Shown in pieces: positions 27,140 to 28,501 of a stretch of 35,052 nucleotides of DNA. Made by a program: the position numbers and the translations under genes. The notes under the pieces are model-generated. The model worked only from the letters and a program-made list of their open reading frames with translations. It was not told the DNA's origin and did not search any database. Source of the DNA: an uncultured Desulfococcus sp. (GTDB taxonomy: Bacteria > Desulfobacterota > Desulfobacteria > Desulfobacterales > Desulfococcaceae); the NCBI GenBank assembly GCA_913060435.1, contig CAJXSB010000004.1, positions 1 through 35,052 of the forward strand. Direction: 5' to 3'. Position 1 is the stretch's first letter, and each line of letters begins with the position of its first letter.

Positions 27140-27250
27140 TGGTGTCCAAATCCTTTCCTCGGGCGGCGAAATAGCGTGCATCTGCCTCGCATCGCGGCCC
27201 GTCGCTGCCTGAGACGCCACGTTCGAGATTCGTTCCTGCGATGGATATGA

Positions 27251-27428
27251 GGTGTTCTCCGGGTCCGGTTTCCGCCCCGTGAGCCGCGAGCTTTAGTCCC
27301 GCTTGGATGCAGCGGAGGAACAGCGGCCCGGACTGTCTGAGCGAAGCGAGTTTCCGGGCCGCCCGGAGCAAATCCTAGCGGGACTTAAGCGAAGCGGCGT
27401 GGGGCGGAAACCGGACCCGGAGAACGCC
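27251..27428. repeat. 178-bp nested imperfect palindrome (MITE/REP-like or structured 5' leader element)
   Basis: Outer arms 27251-27278 / 27401-27428 (28 bp, one G-T type mismatch); middle arms 27292-27308 / 27372-27388 (15/17); inner hairpin GCGGCCCGGA 27323-27332 / TCCGGGCCGC 27353-27362. Confidence 0.85.
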
Positions 27429-27465
27429 GCCGGATGAAACTCCGAATGTTGAGCCCAGGATATAG

Positions 27466-27551
27466 AACATCCATGGAAAAAGTCAACGATGCGAATGTCC
27501 TGGGTGAGAACGAATCCGAACCTGTATGAAACATCCATGGAAAAAGTCAAC
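27466..27551. repeat. Pair of exact 22-bp direct repeats upstream of the hypA palindrome
   Basis: AACATCCATGGAAAAAGTCAAC at 27466-27487 and 27530-27551 (64-bp period); on the minus strand each carries TTGACT. Confidence 0.9.
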
Positions 27552-27631: not shown

Positions 27632-28501
27632 CTATTTGAAGGTTTCCGCGCAGACGTCGCCCAGGTAGGCGAGGTTTTCACAGACGTTGATGCCGTTGGC
27701 CTTCATGGCTTCGACCTTGCTCTGGCCGGTGCCGCTGCTGCCGCTGATGATGGCGCCGGCATGGCCCATGCGGCGGCCCGGAGGCGCGGTCAGGCCGGCG
27801 ATGAAGCCGACCACCGGCTTGGTGACGTTGGCCTTGATGTATTCGGCCGCATCCTCTTCGGCGTTGCCGCCGATTTCACCGATCATGACGATGCCCTCGG
27901 TGGCGTCGTCGGCCTGGAACCGGCTGAGGCAGTCGATGAAGTTGGTGCCGTTGACGGGGTCGCCGCCGATGCCGATGCAGGTGGTCTGGCCCAGGCCCGC
28001 GAGGGTGAGGGCGTGGACGGCCTCATAGGTCAGGGTGCCGGAGCGGGAGACCACGCCGATCCTTCCGGGCTCGTGGATCTTGCCGGGCATGATGCCGATC
28101 TTGCACTCCCCGGGGGTGATGATGCCGGGGCAGTTGGGGCCGATGAGGCGGACCGGCTTGCCCTGGATGTAGTTCTTGACCTTCATCATGTCCATGACCG
28201 GGATGCCCTCGGTGATGCAGACGATCAGGGGCACCTCGGCGTCGGCGGCTTCCATGATGGCGTCGGCCGCAAAGGGGGGCGGCACGAAGATCATGCTGGC
28301 GTTGGCGCCGGTTTTGACGACGGCATCCTTGACAGAGTTGAAGACCGGGACGTCATCCATCATCATGCCGCCCTTGCCCGGCGTGACGCCGGCCACGACA
28401 TTGGTCCCGTATTCAACGCACGCGCGGGTGTGGAACTGGCCTTCTTTACCCGTGATCCCCTGTACCAAAAGTTTCGTGTCTTTATTGACGAGTATACTCA
28501 C
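27632..28501 (-). CDS. sucD: Succinyl-CoA synthetase alpha subunit (ADP/GDP-forming)
   Basis: [45 protein letters not shown]...[20 protein letters not shown]...[21 protein letters not shown]. Confidence 0.96.

Follow-up and report, generated by a model that had tools for sequence, protein, structure and literature searches.

The region between the hypA and sucD genes was analysed in a window of 35,052 nucleotides (the whole stretch of DNA under study) from an uncultured Desulfococcus sp. The element described here lies 3' of sucD and 5' of hypA. A preliminary description had noted a nested palindrome upstream of hypA, and all three of its inverted-repeat layers are present at the positions it gave, with outer arms of 28 nt (Table 1). 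The inner arms, GCGGCCCGG and CCGGGCCGC, flank the tip on both sides. As DNA, the palindrome folds with −84.1 kcal/mol compared with −46.5 for shuffled sequences (z = −10.8), and the RNA of the minus strand reaches −141.2 (z = −10.3); in both cases none of 200 shuffles was as good. Analysis of the protein-coding capacity of the element revealed nothing of note, as had been stated before. The earlier limits of 27251–27428 do enclose the palindrome, but this is only the interior of a larger feature, as copies are homologous over about 27215–27453. A 27-bp direct repeat is found just outside the element, and one of its copies contains the only promoter-like match of the spacer, which is weak and is directed at hypA from just beyond the edge of the element.

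Table 1. Features of the sucD–hypA spacer (window coordinates).
Feature	Position	Strand	Sequence	Remarks
hypA start codon	27139	−		
Whole MITE	27215–27453	+		239 bp between outer TIR ends; genome copies homologous over 27219–27453
Left TIR	27215–27227	+	CGCCACGTTCGAG	family form CTCAACTTTCGAG; 3 mismatches to pattern
Outer palindrome arm, 5' copy	27251–27278	+		inverted-repeat search; pairs with 27401–27428, 28 nt, 96% complementary
Middle arms	27290–27308 / 27372–27390			19 nt, 89%
P1 inner helix, 5' strand	27295–27303	+	AGTCCCGCT	followed by TTGGATG (most relatives TTAAGCG); position common to other lineages
Apical helix, 5' strand	27323–27331	+	GCGGCCCGG	sequence; folds
Conserved tip	27333–27353	+	CTGTCTGAGCGAAGCGAGTTT	includes GC-GNA-GC mini-hairpin
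Apical helix, 3' strand	27354–27362	+	CCGGGCCGC	sequence; helix covariation
P1 inner helix, 3' strand	27377–27385	+	AGCGGGACT	preceded by CCT (relatives TTT/TTA)
Outer palindrome arm, 3' copy	27401–27428	+		in congener both arms of other sequence, still fully complementary to each other
Right TIR	27440–27453	−	CTCCGAATGTTGAG	family form CTCGAAAGTTGAG; TIR pairing and sequence
Promoter-like TTGACT-N18-TATCCT	27486–27457	−		inside first copy of direct repeat
27-bp direct repeat	27461–27487 / 27525–27551			93% identical, spacing 64
sucD	27632–28501	−		

The element was scored at about 40 places in its own 4.58-Mb draft genome, with homology ending at the same ends. This number is an underestimate, because many contigs end inside the element. 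Copies read together with their flanks have the common ends CTCAACTTTCGAG...CTCGAAAGTTGAG, while the flanking DNA is unrelated. The TIR pattern CTCAACTTTCGAGNTTCGTTC, with up to three mismatches allowed, gave 91 matches in this genome and none when reversed. For a congener represented by a single 4.46-Mb contig (G001), 357 matches to its own TIR form were obtained, the reversed control again giving none, and more than 30 copies are near full length.

For target-site duplications (TSDs), the left and right flanks of each element were matched against each other over 3 to 10 bp, with shuffled flanks as the control. Identity peaks at 7 bp, the TSD length, and is significant in both genomes. Mean identity at this length is 0.62 in the congener, as against 0.36 after shuffling (maximum 0.43), with exact duplications in 14/62 cases, for example TAATATA, TCATGCA, TATTTTA and TGAAAAA. 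The corresponding values in the genome of the window are 0.49 and 0.29 (maximum 0.37). The window copy has no clear TSD and its ends are imperfect; it is therefore an old insertion.

The sucD–hypA gene pair is syntenic in the congener, where the spacer is 159 nt long and free of the element; it measures 492 nt in the window genome. The flanks of the orthologous site cannot be aligned base by base, and the comparison thus demonstrates absence at the syntenic locus, not the exact pre-insertion sequence. Dispersed copies in unrelated flanks, TIRs, a TSD of fixed length, lack of coding capacity and an element-free site in a relative identify the element as a MITE. Bacterial MITEs are known as a class (reviewed in PMC10969869), of which this family is a new member.

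The earlier reading as a mobile palindrome is thereby confirmed and made specific. A REP-like nature had also been suggested, and this part of the earlier assignment is not supported. A REP/REPIN palindrome mobilised by RAYT, a Y1 transposase, would likewise form multicopy intergenic palindromes, and inverted copy pairs do occur on two plasmids. However, the copies have TIRs and 7-bp TSDs, features which REPs are without, and at 239 bp the element is far longer than REPs. The terminal GTAG or CGTC tag which is part of the REP definition (PMC3733652) was not seen at its ends. PF01797 was unmatched in the own genome and in six other carriers, with one match in the congener. We regard the REP/REPIN reading as scarcely credible; its RAYT-driven form is ruled out by the absence of PF01797 from the own genome together with the TSDs.

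It is also very unlikely that the element is a cis-regulatory 5' leader RNA of hypAB, the other proposal in the preliminary description. It is located directly upstream of hypA, and the minus-strand promoter-like match could be taken in its favour, but that match is weak and lies just outside the element. The family is dispersed and multicopy and has no Rfam match. At the syntenic hypA locus of the congener it is missing, as it is, judged by BLAST, at the hypA loci of other family members. We found nothing in support of such a leader.

A search for a partner transposase covered the PF01609 family: none of the PF01609 transposases of the congener has these TIRs, and the own genome has no PF01609 match. 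One element copy of the congener (C1:886500-892500, L200) contains the gene of a 401-aa protein similar to IS110-family transposases. Beside this gene are four near-identical units of ~380 bp, each of which consists of half an element joined to a fragment of coding sequence.

In addition to the form of about 238 bp, both genomes contain short forms of about 42–119 bp, the commonest being 70 bp in the own genome and 59–76 bp in the congener. Inspection of the junctions suggests that these may have arisen by deletions between short direct repeats within the hairpin. In one copy (L054), the inner core is inverted relative to the ends, as arm–arm recombination would give. Another element of the own genome (C203; L087 1501-1735) shares these TIRs and is almost equally long, with an unrelated interior which is devoid of the tip.

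The two congeners share the ends of the element and its inner core (~83% identity), but not its outer arms. These are GGTGTTCTCCGGGTCCGGTTTCCGCCCC in the window genome and GGTGCCGGGAGGATACGGCCCGCGCCCC in the congener, only 57% identical position by position. Within each congener, the family-form outer arm is fully complementary to its partner, whereas the window copy has one mismatch.

The 21-nt apex CTGTYTGAGCGNAGCGAGTTT recurs almost unchanged in at least six phyla (Desulfobacterota, Nitrospirota, Bacteroidota, Fusobacteriota, Bacillota and Pseudomonadota), a conservation that is beyond the view of a single sequence on which the preliminary description was based. In a scan of one genome per species, 86 contig stretches contained the palindrome centre GGACTGTYTGAGCGNAGCGAGTTTCC; they belong to Desulfobacterota, Nitrospirota, Bacteroidota (Alkaliflexus, Marinilabilia), Lachnospiraceae and a Halopseudomonas bin. 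It is also present on plasmids of Ilyobacter (Fusobacteriota, 15 copies), Aureibacter, Butyrivibrio, Variovorax and Parabacteroides. The distribution is patchy (18/395 genomes of Desulfobacterota, 6/198 of Bacteroidota) and copy number is often high, with up to 79 copies; the reversed tip pattern is almost never found. Neither IMG/VR contigs nor phage or E. coli records contained the tip, and its absence from IMG/VR and phage records speaks against a phage origin of the module.

The tip is nearly always at the centre of a palindrome, the arms of which share little or nothing between lineages. In 26 lineage-distinct sequences, the nine pairs adjacent to the tip are paired to 87.6%, compared with 58.7% after shuffling, and to at most 57.7% in slid registers. 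Double-sided changes number 72 versus 20 in shuffles (0/500). The adjacent helix covaries across lineages. The element termini vary by lineage as well: CTCAACTTTCGAG in the window family and apparently CATTGGTGTCCGGTTAAAA in Alkaliflexus, CAGCAATTCTCGGTGAAC in Desulfatitalea and TAAATTACTGAATTTATC in Ilyobacter. Such constancy of the tip, with arms that differ in sequence, suggests a structured module of RNA or DNA that seems not to have been described before.

In Ilyobacter, the copies are located between genes and in mixed orientation relative to their neighbours. When 469 ORFs near 122 carrier loci were clustered, no module-specific family of neighbour genes emerged, and a tblastn search for the module in plasmids via its read-through peptide found nothing. 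Mixed orientation and the lack of a recurrent neighbour are less easily reconciled with a cis-regulator than with an element that hitch-hikes or acts in trans. Unrelated plasmids of Variovorax (L265/L272) and Parabacteroides (L266/L273) carry two opposed copies each, 364–409 bp apart. Very long palindromes surround the tip in Lachnospiraceae UBA3332 (L109, L123) and on a Butyrivibrio plasmid (L264; about 240 bp). The outermost arms in UBA3332 differ between copies yet stay palindromic, as if copied from local DNA. We have considered fold-back copying as a possible source of lineage-specific arms, at which these copies hint.

Many carriers have a fuller form, in which an H-type pseudoknot (A-B-A'-B') follows 45–130 nt after the hairpin. 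It is present in Ilyobacter, Parabacteroides, Aureibacter, Variovorax, Halopseudomonas, Desulfococcus, other Desulfobacterales, Marinilabilia/Alkaliflexus and Nitrospirota bins. Helix A occurs in unrelated forms (CTTGAA/TTCAAG, CTTGACC/GGTCAAG, TCGCC/GGCGA, GGCGACC/GGTCGTC, ACGGCA/TGCTGT), and helix B also varies. The loop that separates A from B is oriented parallel to the purine strand of B and fits predicted U·A-U and C·G-C triples. Examples of loop and purine strand are TTTCTTT/AAAGAAA, TTCTTTT/AAGAAAA, TTTTCTTTT/AAAAGAAAA and CTTTT/GAAAA, a single C in the loop tracking a single G in the strand. For 15 sequences, the mean matching run is 6.1 versus 4.6 with partners exchanged (0/5000), a figure which is indicative because the pairs, taken from script output, were trimmed by hand, include one added by eye and cover some lineages twice. 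No pseudoknot was found in the copies of the window, the congener and Desulfatitalea. These copies retain P1 and the tip, together with the TTAAG/TTA internal loop, which in the window is degenerate. On the plasmid pAT6 of Aureibacter tunicatorum (L267, 2001-2022), a type I-D CRISPR operon contains the tip module with its pseudoknot between cas7d and cas5d.

No family of Rfam 15 scored above its gathering threshold for the window element or the other carriers, and at E-values up to 5–10 the only matches, all below threshold, were to hairpin families that are eukaryotic or unrelated. Known RNA families, including skipping-rope RNA, which was considered for its pseudoknot, were rejected for lack of an Rfam match. 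We searched open-access papers for sequence strings and for the topic and met no description of the module; subscription journals and preprints were outside the scope of this search. The module is likely to be novel. We see an even chance that the core belongs, as one domain, to a class of structured RNA not yet described, present in at least six phyla and spread at high copy in unrelated MITEs. This class would combine a long hairpin of invariant tip with a UUAAG/UUA internal loop and, where complete, a triple-helix pseudoknot on the 3' side. Its tip would read CUGUYUGAGCGNAGCGAGUUU (21 nt), and the predicted U·A-U and C·G-C triples of the pseudoknot may lie in the major groove. The function of the cross-phylum module we can only infer.

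It is possible, if rather improbable, that tip and arms have been selected only as DNA, with an extruded hairpin recognised by an enzyme in transposition or replication and no function as RNA. The high-copy elements lie between genes in mixed orientation, the module is carried inside elements with TIRs and TSDs, and the copies of the window genus are without the pseudoknot, all of which would suit this explanation. So would the GC-GNA-GC tip, as the d(GCGNAGC) mini-hairpin is very stable. Against it, the 3' pseudoknot lacks the symmetry of a simple palindrome, and its two crossing helices covary, as does the match between loop and purine strand. Such covariation is what RNA would be expected to show and has no easy explanation in duplex DNA, with a mirror repeat forming H-DNA as a partial alternative.

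For the locus as a whole, we are confident that an old gene-free MITE of ~239 bp was inserted upstream of hypA, with a central module that is older and would act as a folded nucleic acid carried repeatedly by MITEs. A transposase would have acted in trans at the 12–13-bp TIRs, inserting the element with a 7-bp TSD; this duplication is evident for the family and would have decayed at the window copy. Symmetric deletions between short repeats in the hairpin could then have generated the short forms. The central module, consisting of P1, the TTAAG/TTA internal loop, a long helix and the 21-nt tip, is probably much older than the window MITE, because it is present in several phyla, on unrelated arms and in elements with other termini. 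It would act as a folded single-stranded nucleic acid, most likely RNA, and may be a selfish or trans-acting hairpin that MITEs have carried repeatedly. The insertion at hypA was probably neutral and would at most add a stable hairpin to a leader transcript.

Should the module be an RNA, it would be a widespread, high-copy and uncatalogued one, which spreads by hitch-hiking in DNA transposons and has a triple-helix pseudoknot of a kind rare in bacterial repeats. The 21-nt tip provides a sequence handle to annotate much unexplained intergenic palindromic DNA, which also breaks assemblies.

The fuller module resembles structured RNAs of Rfam such as skipping-rope RNA (RF02924, PMC7779021) in being pseudoknotted and distributed over several phyla, but differs from them in lacking a match to Rfam 15 in every lineage that was tested. 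With the REP, BIME and REPIN sequences associated with RAYT transposases (PMC3116915, PMC3733652), the element shares the character of high-copy intergenic palindromes; unlike these, it is 239 bp long, has TIRs and TSDs, combines an invariant tip with a variable stem and resides in a host without PF01797. Like bacterial MITEs, the element is short and gene-free, with TIRs, a TSD, many intergenic copies and internally deleted variants. It departs from that class in its interior, a three-layer palindrome whose core is common to elements of other phyla with other termini, and in its outer arms, which are swapped wholesale between two congeners and yet are complementary in each.
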